Shown here: one piece after another, positions 2,240 through 35,417 of the stretch
How the letters are laid out: every line of letters starts with the position of its first letter
Numbering within the stretch: the first letter of the stretch is position 1
Assembly: GCA_944383035.1 (NCBI GenBank)
Contig: CALWOE010000012.1
Span: forward strand, 1-35,417
Reading direction: 5' to 3'
DNA length: 35,417 nt
Source: an uncultured Clostridia bacterium
Lineage (GTDB): Bacteria; Bacillota; Clostridia; TANB77; CAG-465
The notes under the pieces: generated by a model
Databases searched by the model: none
What the model was told of the DNA's origin: nothing
The model's input: the letters and a program-made list of their open reading frames with translations, nothing else
Translations under genes and position numbers: made by a program

Positions 2240-2312
2240 ATAAATCTCCTCCTTTGATATAATATTTTTGGTTTGGTCAACCGCAAAAATAAAATCAAAG
2301 GAGGAGATTTAT
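2240..2312 (+). promoter_or_regulatory. Stem-loop that sequesters the tnpA ribosome binding site
   Basis: The 19 bases at 2240-2258 are a perfect reverse complement of 2294-2312, and the second arm contains the whole AAAGGAGGAG SD of tnpA. Folding of the leader would hide the SD. IS200 elements are known to limit transposase translation by such a leader stem-loop; here the pairing is seen directly. Confidence 0.75.
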
Positions 2313-2314
2313 CT

Positions 2315-2824
2315 ATGAAAATAGACAAAAATAGTTTAGCACATAGTGCTTGGAATTGCAAATACCATATAGTGTTTGCTCCCAAATATAGGAAAATGGC
2401 AATATATGGGAAAATAAGAAAAGATATAGGAGTAATAATAAGGAGATTATGTGAGCAGAAAGGAATAGAAATAATAGAAGCAGAATTATGTCCAGATCAT
2501 ATACATAGGCTAGTAAGTATTCCACCGAAATATAGTGTATCAAGTGTAATGGGATATATAAAAGGAAAAAGTAGCTTGATGATATTTGATAGACATGCGA
2601 ACTTAAAGTACAGATATGGAAATAGGCACTTTTGGTGTACAGGCTATTATGTGGATACAGTAGGCAAAAATAAAAAAGCAATAGAAGAATATATAAGAAA
2701 ACAATTACAAGAAGATATAGCAACAGATCAAATAAGTATCAAAGAATATGTTGACCCATTTGAGAAGGAAGAAAAGGAAAAAGAAAGAAAAATAAAAAAA
2801 GGGTTAGGACCACTTAAGTGGTAG
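2315..2824 (+). CDS. tnpA: IS200/IS605-family transposase TnpA
   Basis: 169-aa Y1 HUH transposase that cuts and rejoins single-stranded DNA at the element's hairpin ends. The start is the ATG at 2315, placed by the AAAGGAGGAG SD at 2297-2306; an in-frame upstream start at 2273 would lie inside the SD-sequestering stem and adds residues foreign to the family. The HUH motif is H62-I63-H64 in CPDHIHRLVSIPPKYS. The catalytic Tyr is expected at Y126 in EEYIRKQ, with the helper Gln four residues on (Q130). Two positions look unusual against what I recall of close relatives: Arg65 directly after HUH (usually Met) and Thr109 in HFWCTGYY (usually Arg). Length is complete and there is no frameshift, so it may still be active. 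Confidence 0.9.
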   Translation: MKIDKNSLAHSAWNCKYHIVFAPKYRKMAIYGKIRKDIGVIIRRLCEQKGIEIIEAELCPDHIHRLVSIPPKYSVSSVMGYIKGKSSLMIFDRHANLKYRYGNRHFWCTGYYVDTVGKNKKAIEEYIRKQLQEDIATDQISIKEYVDPFEKEEKEKERKIKKGLGPLKW

Positions 2825-2956
2825 CCTGAGAAAGAAATGCGGTTGACAGACCATTCAGTAGGGCTTAAGCCCAGAAGTGCCAGTACAAAAGCCTTTTAGG
2901 CGCAGAGCAAACCACCCGTTTTACGGGTGGTTATGATTGTATATTTTTTATTTATT

Positions 2957-2985
2957 TTGTCTTTTTGTAAATTTTATGGTATAAT
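2957..2985 (+). promoter_or_regulatory. SigA-type promoter for trmN6-rsmI-rnhB
   Basis: TTGTCT (2957-2962), a 17-base spacer and TATAAT (2980-2985) with an extended TGG in front. It lies 24 bases before the trmN6 start, just outside the IS200 right end. Confidence 0.6.
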
Positions 2986-3009
2986 CTTGTTTGAAATAGG
3001 AGATATTTT

Positions 3010-6831: not shown

Positions 6832-8499
6832 ATGGCAAGTAAACAAGAAAAAGTTGGTACAGTAAAAATGTCAGCATTTGATCTTAAAAATACAAAACCT
6901 GATTTTATGTCTTATGCTGATTTTCAAAATAATCCAGAACTTATAAAAGATTTAGAAAAGCAAGATAGGTTCTTAAATGTTCTTGAAAAATATTATAATA
7001 ATACAAAACCAAAAGATGATAAAAGTTTTCAAAGCTTTTTGTGGGATAATATTGAAAATAAAGTTAATTTAAATGAAAAACTAAATAAAAAATTAAATCA
7101 AGATGAAATTGATGATATAAAATCATCAACTATGGAAAATCATGATGATTCAACATCAAAATATCAGCAAGAAGTTCAAGAAAATGAAATGGAAAAAGAA
7201 GAAATACAAAATCTTCAAAAATCTGGTCTTGCAGTAGATAAAAATATAGAAAAAGAAGCTAAAGAAAAGCTTGAAGAAAAAAGTAACGATAAAGATAATA
7301 ATCAAAAGCAAGTTGAGGAATCAAAAGACTTAAAGAAAGTATTTTTAGAAGCTATGTATACTAATACATTAGAAGAATATTATCACTTAAAAAAAGATCT
7401 AATGGTTGGTTTTAATGGTCAAGTTAAAACTGGAGAATTATCTCCTGGTAGAAAAATGAACACAAAGCTTATAGCTTATGAAAAATATTTAAAAAAGATA
7501 AATACCATGTATAAAGCATATTCAGGGATGGATATATTTAAAGATAGTGAAGAGGTAAATAAAAAATTATCAGAACTTACAGGATATGATGAAAAAAATG
7601 AGAAAGCTTTAAATCTTAAAACAGAAAAAAATATTGGTAAGGTGTCACAATTAAGTCAAGAAATAGATAGTATATCAGAAGAAATTGTTGATCTTTCTGA
7701 AAGATCAGATAGCATGGATACTGAAGAATTTAAAAACAGAATGGATAGTTTACAATCAAAACTTGTAAATAAACAGTTGGAAATGGATGATTTAGATCCA
7801 AGTATGGAAAGACTTATTGCTGGAAATAATGAACAAGAAAGATATGAAGATATGCAACAAAGAGAAATTGGTTCTGTTTACATGAAAAGACAACAAAGAG
7901 CAATTGATTCAAAAGATAAGGTAAGTGTAAGGGCAAATGATTTACGAAATGAAAGAATAGATGATAAATTAAATAAAGTACAAAAAGATCCATTAGAAAA
8001 TCAAAAAGAAGTTGTAAAGAGGCTTATGGATGAAGCTGAAGAATATAGAAAAGATGGAAACTATATTAAAGCTATGGAAGTAATGGAAAGTATAGAAAAA
8101 ATTACTACCTCACCAAATGTTGTAGAAACTCAAAATATAAATCAAAAAGCTTATGAACCAAATACTTTAACAAGTAATGATAAACAAAAAGTAAGTGAAA
8201 TGAAACAGGAAATTGTAGATGACTACCATGAACAAAAATCTCAAAATGAAAAAGTAAATGAATCACAAAATTATAAAACAAGTATGACTGAAAGTATTGT
8301 AAAGGGGGCAGCTACAGGGATGGCTATAGGAACTATGGCAAATTTGGGAAATAAATTTGGAAACAGTTTAAAATCTCAAGTTTATTCAGAAGAAGAAGCA
8401 ATAAAAAACACAGCAGAAAGAACAGAAAGAGAAGCAAAAGAAAGAGTAAATGTTATAGATAAAAATTTAGAACAAAATAACAATTTATGGACAAGATAA
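6832..8499 (+). CDS. Unknown 555-aa highly charged, coiled-coil-rich protein
   Basis: I do not recognise this family. The protein begins MASKQEKVGTVKMSAFDLKN and is dominated by Lys, Glu, Asp, Asn and Gln with long stretches likely to form helices and coiled coils, for example around residues 85-165 and 270-330. There is no signal peptide. The only apolar segment is near residues 490-505 (VKGAATGMAIGTMANLG), a Gly/Ala-rich stretch of the glycine-zipper kind, followed by another charged helix to the C-terminus. A weak internal similarity to a tetratricopeptide helix pair (EEYRKDGNYIKAMEVMESIEKI) lies near residues 400-420. The start has a GAGGT SD and its own promoter. It is a single gene between xth and fba; base composition matches neighbours. 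Confidence 0.8.
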   Translation: MASKQEKVGTVKMSAFDLKNTKPDFMSYADFQNNPELIKDLEKQDRFLNVLEKYYNNTKPKDDKSFQSFLWDNIENKVNLNEKLNKKLNQDEIDDIKSSTMENHDDSTSKYQQEVQENEMEKEEIQNLQKSGLAVDKNIEKEAKEKLEEKSNDKDNNQKQVEESKDLKKVFLEAMYTNTLEEYYHLKKDLMVGFNGQVKTGELSPGRKMNTKLIAYEKYLKKINTMYKAYSGMDIFKDSEEVNKKLSELTGYDEKNEKALNLKTEKNIGKVSQLSQEIDSISEEIVDLSERSDSMDTEEFKNRMDSLQSKLVNKQLEMDDLDPSMERLIAGNNEQERYEDMQQREIGSVYMKRQQRAIDSKDKVSVRANDLRNERIDDKLNKVQKDPLENQKEVVKRLMDEAEEYRKDGNYIKAMEVMESIEKITTSPNVVETQNINQKAYEPNTLTSNDKQKVSEMKQEIVDDYHEQKSQNEKVNESQNYKTSMTESIVKGAATGMAIGTMANLGNKFGNSLKSQVYSEEEAIKNTAERTEREAKERVNVIDKNLEQNNNLWTR

Positions 8500-14026: not shown

Positions 14027-15415
14027 ATGATAGATTCAATGGAAAAAATAGTTAATCTGTGTAAAGCAAGAGGATATATATATCCTGGTTCAGAAATATA
14101 TGGAGGTCTTGCCAATACATGGGATTACGGTCCACTAGGTGTAGAACTAAAAAATAATATAAAAAAAGCATGGTGGAAAAAATTTGTAAGAGAAAATCCA
14201 CATAATGTTGGAATTGATGCAAGTATTTTAATGAATCCTAGAACTTGGGAAGCTTCAGGGCATTTAGGTGGAAAATTTACAGATCCGTTAATTGATTGTA
14301 AAGAATGTAAAAGTAGATTTAGAGCTGATAAACTTATAGAAGAATTTGCTTTTAATAATAAAATAGATATAAAAGTAAATGACGGAATGAGTGATGAAGA
14401 ATTAGTAAATATAATAGATGAATATAGTATATGTTGTCCTAAATGCGGGAAACATAATTATACAAATATAAGAAAATTTAATTTGATGTTTAAGACATTT
14501 CAAGGTGTAACAGAAGATAATACAGCTACAATATATTTAAGACCAGAAACTGCACAAGGAATATTTGTTAATTTTAAAAATGTTTTAAGAACAACTAGAA
14601 AAAAATTACCACTTGGAATAGGACAAATAGGAAAATCTTTTAGAAATGAAATAACACCAGGTAATTTTACATTTAGAACACGTGAATTTGAACAAATGGA
14701 ACTTGAGTTTTTCTGTAAACCTGGAGAAGATTTAGAGTGGTTTTCATATTGGAAAGAGTATTGTAAAAAGTTCTTAGAAGATCTAGGAATGAAAGATGAA
14801 AATATAAGACTTAGAGATCATGAAAAAGAAGAACTATCACATTACAGTAATGCTACAACAGATATAGAATTTAACTTCCCATTTGGATTTGGAGAGTTAT
14901 GGGGAATAGCAGATAGAACAGATTACGATTTATCAAGACATATGGAATTTTCTGGTGAAGATATGACATATTTAGATGAGGCAACAAATCAAAGATATGT
15001 ACCATATTGTATTGAACCTTCTCTTGGATGTGATAGAGTAGCACTTGCATTTTTATGTAATGCATATGAGGAAGAAAAAATAAATGATAATGATACAAGA
15101 GTTGTATTAAAACTTCATCCTTATCTTGCACCAGTAAAAATAGCAGTTCTTCCTTTATCAAAGAAACTAAGTGAAGAAGCATATACAATATATGAAAAAT
15201 TACTTAGTAAATACAATGTGGATTTTGATGAAACTGCAAGTATTGGAAAAAGATATAGAAGACAAGATGAAATTGGAACACCATATTGTATAACTTACGA
15301 TTTTGAAAGTAAGACTGATAATTGTGTTACAATAAGAAATAGAGATACAATGAGCCAAGAAAGAGTAGAAATAGACAAATTAGATAAATATTTTAGCGAT
15401 AAATTTGATTTTTAA
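14027..15415 (+). CDS. glyS: Glycine--tRNA ligase (alpha2 dimeric type)
   Basis: 462-aa one-chain GlyRS, a class II synthetase that charges tRNA(Gly). Visible motifs are [20 protein letters not shown] near the N-terminus, [15 protein letters not shown], two CxxC pairs (near residues 91-94 and 136-140) that may bind zinc, [39 protein letters not shown] (motif 2), and [17 protein letters not shown] (motif 3). The C-terminal anticodon-binding domain follows from about residue 365 ([11 protein letters not shown]). The SD is AAAGGAGGA. This alpha2 type replaces the glyQ/glyS tetramer of many bacteria. There is no T-box leader; it lies just 25 bases behind the membrane protein gene. Confidence 0.96.
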
Positions 15416-33363: not shown

Positions 33364-34929
33364 ATGAATGAATTAAAAAAATATAAAGGTGAGAAAAAAG
33401 GTATTGTTACTGCTTTTAAAGCAATATCAGTAATAATACTTATTTTATTACAAATAGCTTTTTTATTCTTTTTGTTTTCTAATACAACAAGATTTTCACA
33501 TTTAACTAAGATTATTTTTGAAGTATTAAAAATAATAACAGTACTATTTATATTATATAGGCACGATAGTGCAGCATATAAAATATCATGGATAATTTTA
33601 ATTATGTTTATACCTGCAGTAGGTATTGTAATATATTTACTTTGGGGTAATAATAAATTAAGAAGAAAAAAAGAACTTGTATATAGAAGAGTACGCGTTG
33701 ATACTGAAGATAACTTAATTGAAAATTTTGAACTTGAAAATGAAATAAAAAATCAAGATATATATAAATATAATCAAATAAAATATATGACTAATATAAC
33801 TGGATATCCATTATGTAGAAATGAAGGTGTTAAATATTTTGAAACAGGTGAAAAATTCTTTAAAGATGTAAAAGAAGAATTAAAAAATGCTAAGTCATAT
33901 ATTTTACTGGAATTTTATATATTATCTAAAGGTAAGTTATTGGATGATATACTAGATATATTGATAGAAAAAGCAAAACAAGGAGTAAAAGTCATATTTT
34001 TAATAGATTCTCTAGGTGCACTTTTAAGAAAACCAAAAGGATTTATAGAAAATATGAAGAAAAATGGAATTTTAGTATATGAATTTAATCCATTTTCTCC
34101 TGTAATAAATGGTTATATAAATTATAGGGATCACAGAAAAATTATTTCAATTGATGGAAAAATTGCATATACAGGTGGTGTAAATATAGCTGATGAATAT
34201 GCAAATATTATTGAAAAATATGGATATTGGAAAGATGTTGGAGTTAAAGTCACAGGTGATGTTGCATGGAGCTTTACATTAATGACCTTAAGAACAATAG
34301 AAAGTATTGATAAAAAAAGAATTGATTATGAATGGTATAAGAAAATTGCAGAAGAACAAACAAAGGATTTATCAAAAAAAGATGGTTATGTTTTAGCATA
34401 TGCAGATGGACCAGATAATAGAAAAAATCCAATAGAAAGTGTGTTTATCCAAACAATAAATTATGCAAAAAAATATTTGTATATTACCACACCATATTTT
34501 ATAATTAGTGAACCAATTCTTACAGCTTTACTTAACAGTGCAAGAAGTGGTGTAGACGTAAGAGTTATATTACCACATATTCCAGATAAAAAGATGGTTC
34601 AAATGGTAACACGTTCATATTATGAAGTGCTATTAGAAGCAGGAGTTAAAGTATATGAATATAAACCTGGTTTTGTACATTCTAAAACTTTTGTAGCTGA
34701 CGATGATACAGCTATAATTGGTACTGCTAATTTGGATTTTAGAAGTACGCATTTAAATTTTGAATGTTCATTATATACATATAAAACTGGTGAAGAGTTA
34801 AAAGTAAAACAAGATTTTGAAAGTATGCTTGATAAATGTATAGAGGTTAATCTAGAAGAAATAAAAAATAGACCGCTATTAGTAAAAGCTACAGAAGCAT
34901 TTTTATCTGCTTTTTCACCTATGCTATAA
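33364..34929 (+). CDS. cls: Cardiolipin synthase (phospholipase D family)
   Basis: 521-aa membrane cardiolipin synthase, joining two phosphatidylglycerols. Two N-terminal transmembrane helices (about 17-40 and 70-95, the latter in the PLDc_N segment ISWIILIMFIPAVGIVIYLLWG) precede two HKD catalytic modules: H257-R-K-I-I-S-I-D in DHRKIISIDGKIAYTGGVN, and H439-S-K-T-F-V-A-D in FVHSKTFVADDDTAIIGTAN. TTPYFIISEP between them and the C-terminal helix LLVKATEAFLSAFSPML are typical. A GAGGTAATTT SD precedes the ATG, 54 bases after tgt; a terminator follows. Confidence 0.95.
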   Translation: MNELKKYKGEKKGIVTAFKAISVIILILLQIAFLFFLFSNTTRFSHLTKIIFEVLKIITVLFILYRHDSAAYKISWIILIMFIPAVGIVIYLLWGNNKLRRKKELVYRRVRVDTEDNLIENFELENEIKNQDIYKYNQIKYMTNITGYPLCRNEGVKYFETGEKFFKDVKEELKNAKSYILLEFYILSKGKLLDDILDILIEKAKQGVKVIFLIDSLGALLRKPKGFIENMKKNGILVYEFNPFSPVINGYINYRDHRKIISIDGKIAYTGGVNIADEYANIIEKYGYWKDVGVKVTGDVAWSFTLMTLRTIESIDKKRIDYEWYKKIAEEQTKDLSKKDGYVLAYADGPDNRKNPIESVFIQTINYAKKYLYITTPYFIISEPILTALLNSARSGVDVRVILPHIPDKKMVQMVTRSYYEVLLEAGVKVYEYKPGFVHSKTFVADDDTAIIGTANLDFRSTHLNFECSLYTYKTGEELKVKQDFESMLDKCIEVNLEEIKNRPLLVKATEAFLSAFSPML

Positions 34930-34930
34930 A

Positions 34931-35101
34931 CAAAAAAAGATTAGATAAAACATCTAATCTTTTTTGTTTTGGTGTGATTTTAAGGAGGTATCACACATGA
35001 GCTAGTGCTATGTATTGGACTTACACCAATATTTTTATTAGTTAGATAGAGTGGATTGATTAGATAGTAAAAGTGCGGAAAAGAAGTTAACTAATAATGT
35101 A
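34931..35101 (-). ncRNA. Candidate minus-strand small RNA with an anti-Shine-Dalgarno loop
   Basis: Read on the minus strand: TATAAT at 35107-35112 with a weak TTTAGT 17 bases upstream (35130-35135); then a pyrimidine-rich, mostly unpaired 5' part (about 35090-35045); a hairpin TATTGG/CCAATA (35013-35031); then a hairpin GTGTGAT/ATCACAC (34972-34996) whose 11-nt loop contains CCTCCTT, the anti-SD sequence; then the terminator with seven T. Length would be about 170 nt. The segment is more GC-rich than nearby spacers, as structured RNAs in AT-rich genomes tend to be. CCUCC-type loops are used by several Gram-positive small RNAs to block ribosome binding sites. No known RNA family is recognised. 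Transcription is inferred. Confidence 0.35.
34933..34966. terminator. Bidirectional terminator after cls
   Basis: A stem of 9 bp (AGATTAGAT, 34938-34946, with 34952-34960) extended by A/T pairs to 14 bp, with an AAAAC loop. T-tracts lie on both sides, so it can also end a transcript coming from the right on the minus strand. Confidence 0.85.
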
Positions 35102-35132
35102 ATGTAATTATACTAACATAGCATAACAAACT

Positions 35133-35161
35133 AAAAAAATAAAAATAAAAATAAAAATAAA
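35133..35161. repeat. AAAAAT hexamer tandem repeat
   Basis: About four to five tandem copies of AAAAAT (35133-35161), between the candidate small RNA promoter region and an AT-rich spacer. No coding content. Confidence 0.7.
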
Positions 35162-35219
35162 ATCTTACTTAAAACAAATATTAAAATTAAATATATTATA
35201 TATCTTAATTATACAAAAG

Positions 35220-35285
35220 TCAATAGTTTTACATAAATAATATGTTATGTAAAATATTGATTTGAAACAATTTTTATGATATAAT
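35220..35285 (+). promoter_or_regulatory. Promoter with an overlapping 16-bp inverted repeat
   Basis: TTGATT (35257-35262), a 17-base spacer and TATAAT (35280-35285) with extended TGA. An inverted repeat (left arm 35220-35236, right arm 35245-35260, 16 bp with one bulged G) has its right arm over the -35 box, as an operator or a terminator-like hairpin would. Confidence 0.5.
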
Positions 35286-35289
35286 TCAT

Positions 35290-35417
35290 GTAACTAAGAA
35301 TATATGATACTTTTAGTTACTTTAGAAATTATCAAATAAAAATCTCAAATTTGACAGTTGTAAAAAAGTAAAAGACTGATAACCTTTGATATACAAGGCT
35401 TTCAGTCTTCAATATAT
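35290..35417 (+). other. Leader or non-coding transcript region at the right edge
   Basis: Downstream of the preceding promoter there is no ORF with an SD up to the window end. Two hairpins are visible: GTAACTAA/TTAGTTAC (35290-35297 with 35313-35320), and AAGACTGA/TCAGTCTT (35372-35379 with 35402-35409) enclosing CCTT/AAGG. This may be the 5' leader of a gene beyond the edge, or a recombination-type site; the sequence stops too soon to tell. Confidence 0.4.

Follow-up and report, generated by a model that had tools for sequence, protein, structure and literature searches.

A predicted minus-strand small RNA with an exposed anti-Shine–Dalgarno loop and anti-start codon at a contig end of an uncultured Clostridia bacterium

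Does the stretch that runs from the end of a cardiolipin synthase-like gene to the end of its contig encode a small RNA (sRNA), and if it does, could that RNA act on the initiation sites of other genes? These questions were raised by an original prediction, made from the letters of the sequence alone, of a 171-nt minus-strand sRNA with an anti-Shine–Dalgarno (anti-SD) hairpin loop. The window analyzed is an entire contig of 35,417 bp from a draft genome of 1.28 Mb and 25% GC, and the neighbor of the locus is the convergent gene cls (33364–34929, plus strand), whose cardiolipin synthase-like product has PLDc_2, PLDc, and PLDc_N domains.

Results

The locus and its flanks

No open reading frame of at least 80 aa was found on the minus strand at the locus, in line with its original description as gene-free. 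The GC content of 34971–35127 is 30.6%, compared with 10.6% in the stretch upstream of it (35128–35268). Among spacers of more than 60 bp in the window, only 2825–3009, beside an IS200 gene, is richer, so the spacer is GC-rich, as had been claimed. Within 2273–3009, that IS200-type gene (Y1 transposase) has very stable structures near both of its ends, and the spacer downstream of it is the most GC-rich of the window (36%).

The right end of the contig is repetitive. A 75-bp element at 35269–35343, with near-palindromic ends (ATTTTTAT..AATT / AATTATATCATAAAAAT) and an inner hairpin (GTAACTAA/TTAGTTAC), resembles a small repeat or a MITE; contig C52 has a 100% identical stretch that ends at 7401–7422. 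From 35341 to the contig end at 35417 lies the end of a multicopy element that recurs at the termini of contigs C46 (100%) and C49 (91%); it carries AAATTTGACAGTTG, which is also present at the end of C52 next to the 75-bp repeat. Should C52 and the contig studied here (C12) lie on either side of a single insertion, that insertion would be bordered at each end by the 75 bp as a direct repeat.

Promoter and terminator

Both strands were scanned for promoters from 34200 to 35417, and 12 promoter-like sites were listed. The best-scoring site on either strand is a sigma-70-type promoter on the minus strand, TTGACT-17-TATAAT at 35223–35195 (11/12). Sites of at least 11/12 in 460 kb of the genome number 92 with a spacer of 17, compared with 26 and 20 with spacers of 16 and 18, respectively; with the latter two as a measure of chance, about three quarters of the spacer-17 sites are probably real promoters. 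The TATAAT at 35112–35107, which had been taken as the promoter, has no usable −35 element and is not among the 12 sites. Moving the promoter to 35223–35195 makes the predicted RNA ~258 nt long instead of 171 (34931–35188, minus strand), with its 5′ end inferred from the promoter and its 3′ end from the terminator. The true start of the transcript is uncertain because of the extreme AT-richness of the initial 60 nt past the promoter. Overall, the RNA is put at roughly 200–260 nt. The terminator, a strong hairpin with a T-tract at 34933–34965 on the minus strand, was found as originally proposed, and because it is nearly symmetric, it probably also ends cls on the plus strand.

Directly upstream of the −35 element is an inverted repeat, TTTTACATAA-N8-TTATGTAAAA (35227–35254), which is a possible operator. 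A similar repeat, TTTTACATAA-N10-TTATGTAAAA, occurs at one other site in the genome (C66:2109–2136), where it overlaps the −35 element of a promoter. Because 7 of the 92 strong promoters bear some inverted repeat of such size, the operator reading has weak evidence. The promoter on C66 is followed by a long leader with a terminator-like hairpin and then by the gene for a 432-aa secreted or surface-type protein.

Anti-SD hairpin and fold of the full-length RNA

The CCTCCTT hairpin loop of the original prediction was readily recovered. On the minus strand, 34972–34996 forms a perfect 7-bp stem (GTGTGAT/ATCACAC) with an 11-nt loop, that is, GTGTGAT-ACCTCCTTAAA-ATCACAC in DNA and GUGUGAU-ACCUCCUUAAA-AUCACAC in RNA, with the anti-SD CCUCCUU at 34982–34988. 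No second copy of the hairpin sequence exists in the window, where 0 are expected, or elsewhere in the genome. Perfect hairpins of at least 6 bp whose loop holds CCTCC or GGAGG number 15 in 460 kb, and only the stem at 34972–34996 has three G–C pairs, the others being A/T-only or nearly so, which fits the composition. This CCTCC-loop hairpin is not a product of chance. Together with the terminator (66 nt), it is far more stable than expected (z −6.7). None of the Rfam 15 families reached its gathering threshold in the window, consistent with the earlier statement that no known family is recognized.

Whether the anti-SD hairpin forms is decided by the choice of 5′ end, its probability being 0.1–0.25 in the 171-nt RNA versus 0.91–0.99 per pair in the 258-nt RNA. 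The 171-nt RNA prefers a rival fold, UUGGUGU/ACACCAA with ACAUAGC/GCUCAUGU, although CCUCCUU is mostly unpaired there too. The hairpin is dominant in the 258-nt RNA because 35127–34999 forms a long interrupted stem through the pairings GCUAUGU/ACAUAGC, UUACAUUA/UUGGUGUAA, and UUAUUAGUUA/UAACUAAUAA. This minus-strand stem (34999–35127; 30 predicted pairs, MFE −21.6) encloses a 43-nt single-stranded, pyrimidine-rich loop at 35045–35087, and in the full-length RNA the anti-SD loop is unpaired with p ≥0.98.

The structure is specific to the strand. When 34968–35127, from which the terminator is excluded, was compared with dinucleotide shuffles, z was −4.4 for the minus strand, none of 300 shuffles being as stable, and −0.98 for the plus strand; for the stem domain alone the values were −3.2 (again 0 of 300) and −1.1. 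The plain MFE is not extreme, with 143 of 1,764 windows of 160 nt equally stable, owing to the higher GC content of coding DNA; the fold signal is one relative to composition. Promoter, terminator, strand-specific folding, and GC island thus all support the minus-strand sRNA of the original prediction, but its boundaries (35188–34931 in place of 171 nt) and its structure had to be revised. We infer that the sRNA gene is likely to be real.

Complementarity to translation initiation sites

The strong SD sites that had been attributed to the genes of this organism are evident in 460 kb of its genome, in which a start codon follows 104 of 135 AGGAGG sequences. The loop is, over all of its 11 nt, the perfect complement of UUUAAGGAGGU, of which there are nine copies in the genome, including the sRNA locus itself, and 7 of the other 8 are located at real SDs, among them those of rpsP, rpsT, and a SpoIIIAC-like gene. 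The remaining copy, TTTAAGGAGGT at C38:5240–5250, is without a gene start at SD distance and could be another noncoding or regulatory site. A 15-nt segment around the loop pairs at −10 kcal/mol or below with 42% of 309 SD-bearing start regions versus 1.6% of coding controls. For the broad translational repressor that was originally hypothesized, this indicates in principle a capacity for wide SD pairing rather than specificity. The 16S rRNA presumably ends in GAUCACCUCCUU, which GAUACCUCCUU of the sRNA would imitate. The 16S 3′ end was looked for in the genus without a match, probably because rRNA is missing or withheld in the draft genomes, and the anti-SD identity therefore rests on general knowledge and on SD usage.

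The four unpaired bases that precede the anti-SD hairpin are UCAU, and the CAU within them (34997–34999, minus strand; p unpaired 0.84–0.98) is an anti-start codon at a distance of 8 nt from the anti-SD. In the genome, the spacing between AGGAGG and ATG peaks at 7–8. Because the chance of an ATG at such a distance is ~12%, CAU adds little weight alone, but its position at the SD–AUG spacing gives the RNA the design of an anti-initiation-region RNA and somewhat strengthens the anti-SD idea.

A real structured sRNA could also have its main role elsewhere, in the 43-nt loop or in the long stem (protein binding or another antisense seed), with CCUCCUU being incidental or stabilizing. Most of the RNA consists of the long stem and its large loop, whose fold is significant by itself, as described above. 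However, the anti-SD is fully accessible, with an unpaired CAU next to it at the spacing that the genome uses, and the 43-nt loop is no more complementary to start regions than shuffled sequence; as an antisense seed, it was rejected for that reason. Such a role is conceivable but improbable, and an action of the candidate sRNA through the blocking of initiation sites is, by a modest degree, the better supported expectation.

On the plus strand, the same bases read AAGGAGGT-ATCACAC-ATG and resemble an SD with a start codon, and any CCUCCUU is necessarily complementary to an SD. The plus strand could therefore be the functional one, with TTTTAAGGAGGTATCACACATG as the SD and start codon of a small gene, or of one decayed after mobile-element insertions, and the minus-strand motif as the mirror image of its SD. 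The frequency with which AGGAGG precedes start codons here (104 of the 135 sampled), the patatin-like gene with its own SD that directly follows cls in many relatives, and the repetitive right flank are all in keeping with this. Yet the frame from that ATG ends after two codons (ATG AGC TAG), no promoter-like site was found on the plus strand from 34200 to 35087, and the cls terminator intervenes. Furthermore, the fold is significant on the minus strand and not on the plus strand, and the minus strand has its own promoter. The two-codon frame, the lack of an upstream promoter-like site in the scanned region, and the preceding terminator lead us to prefer an anti-initiation-region RNA over a plus-strand start, which is unlikely.

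Search for relatives

Homologues of the sRNA were sought by blastn, patterns, and single-sequence covariance models in 28 genomes of the genus, 36 of the family, and 287 of the order, and none was found. The blastn matches of the region at these three levels were AT-rich only and were discarded, and the hairpin pattern with 3 mismatches matched only itself among the 28 genus genomes. Exact hairpin cores were absent from a collection of 84,980 species and from viral contigs; one 18-mer match in a viral contig was dismissed as an unrelated stretch that did not match the model. The next best match of covariance model R1 (26.8 bits) was antisense within a glycosidase-like coding gene, and model R2 (hairpin plus terminator) returned ordinary terminators, a few with a nearby CCTCC but without the hairpin arrangement; both sets were rejected. 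Phage and plasmid records yielded nothing beyond AT-rich noise. Downstream of cls, relatives carry other genes, often the patatin-like gene. Because Cls is only ~60% identical to that of the nearest genomes, a real sRNA could have diverged past recognition, and the missing homologues are weak evidence. The sRNA is probably lineage-specific.

The surroundings of the locus bear on two further explanations. The RNA is convergent with cls and has the near-symmetric terminator region in common with it, so it might be a cis antisense or convergent transcript that tunes the 3′ processing or termination of the cls mRNA. This is quite unlikely, as the predicted RNA stops at the terminator just past the cls stop codon without overlapping the coding sequence, and within the genus cls has no conserved downstream neighbors. 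It is more doubtful still that the RNA is a remnant of an integrated element or a replicon counter-transcript RNA: the contig-end repeat is common to two other contigs and adjoins the 75-bp repeat found in a third, the sRNA is absent from all relatives searched, and a weak, sub-threshold ctRNA_pT181 match lies here on the plus strand, but the phage and plasmid matches are noise, the flank has no replication or integration gene, and the repeats begin at 35269, outside the sRNA.

Discussion

The features of a trans-acting anti-SD sRNA are present at this locus, namely a promoter and terminator of its own, no open reading frame, and an accessible SD-complementary segment. The closest documented precedent is the group of CiaR-dependent csRNAs of streptococci, which comprises csRNA1–5 and their relatives. 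In csRNA1–3 and 5, CCUCCU lies in the first loop (PMC4438229), an anti-AUG CAU occurs within unpaired regions in 53 of 61 cases (PMC3091779), and base-pairing control of comC is supported by compensatory mutations (PMC4507080). The candidate shares with them a small RNA at an orphan locus, a terminator stem, a Gram-positive AT-rich host, and a CCUCCU loop and CAU anti-start codon that are both unpaired (PMC4438229, PMC3091779). In contrast to the csRNAs, it is present as a single copy rather than as several siblings, is longer, bears a large stem domain at its 5′ side, and is unrelated to them in sequence. No CiaR repeat (TTTAAG-N5-TTTAAG, up to one mismatch) was found near its promoter, the sole match in the window being at 14574, and the csRNA nonamer [A/C]UCCUAAA[A/C] (PMC3091779) is not present exactly, the loop CUCCUUAAAA having one inserted U. 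The candidate was therefore rejected as a csRNA.

RsaE/RoxS and RNAIII of Firmicutes likewise bind SDs through single-stranded C-rich seeds, those of RsaE and RNAIII being UCCC (PMC9217828). Their seed is UCCC(C), whereas that of the candidate is CCUCCUU, and no Rfam family exceeds its threshold in the window. The best-ranked bacterial sRNA in a permissive Rfam search was SpF25 of Streptococcus (RF02432), which consists of two hairpins and a terminator and matched 34928–34998, but it reached 21.6 of the 48 bits required by the gathering threshold, mostly through the terminator. Judged by its predicted anatomy, the candidate is csRNA-like and belongs to no family.

In the mechanism that we propose, a free-standing sRNA would be encoded on the minus strand, beginning near 35188 and ending near 34931. 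Its 5′ domain, the long interrupted stem with the pyrimidine-rich loop, would prevent the 3′ part from misfolding, so that UCAU-[GUGUGAU-ACCUCCUUAAA-AUCACAC] could display the unpaired anti-AUG and anti-SD loop. The most likely action would be in trans, with the loop beginning to pair at the SD of a target mRNA and the pairing possibly extending to the start codon, which would exclude the 30S subunit. The expected outcome is less translation of a subset of genes that carry a (U)UUAAGGAGGU site, presumably in the way in which the streptococcal csRNAs act. A bolder version, in which this one RNA imitates the 16S end and titrates the strongest SDs, including those of rpsP and rpsT, as a lineage-specific global translation brake under a possibly operator-controlled promoter, is a speculation to which we give little credence.

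Anti-SD sRNAs have so far been documented mainly in streptococci, staphylococci, and Bacillus. If the proposal holds, the RNA described here would be an independent case in a lineage with a small and very AT-rich genome, with the anti-SD and anti-AUG at the spacing used by the host, and the design would seem to have evolved repeatedly.
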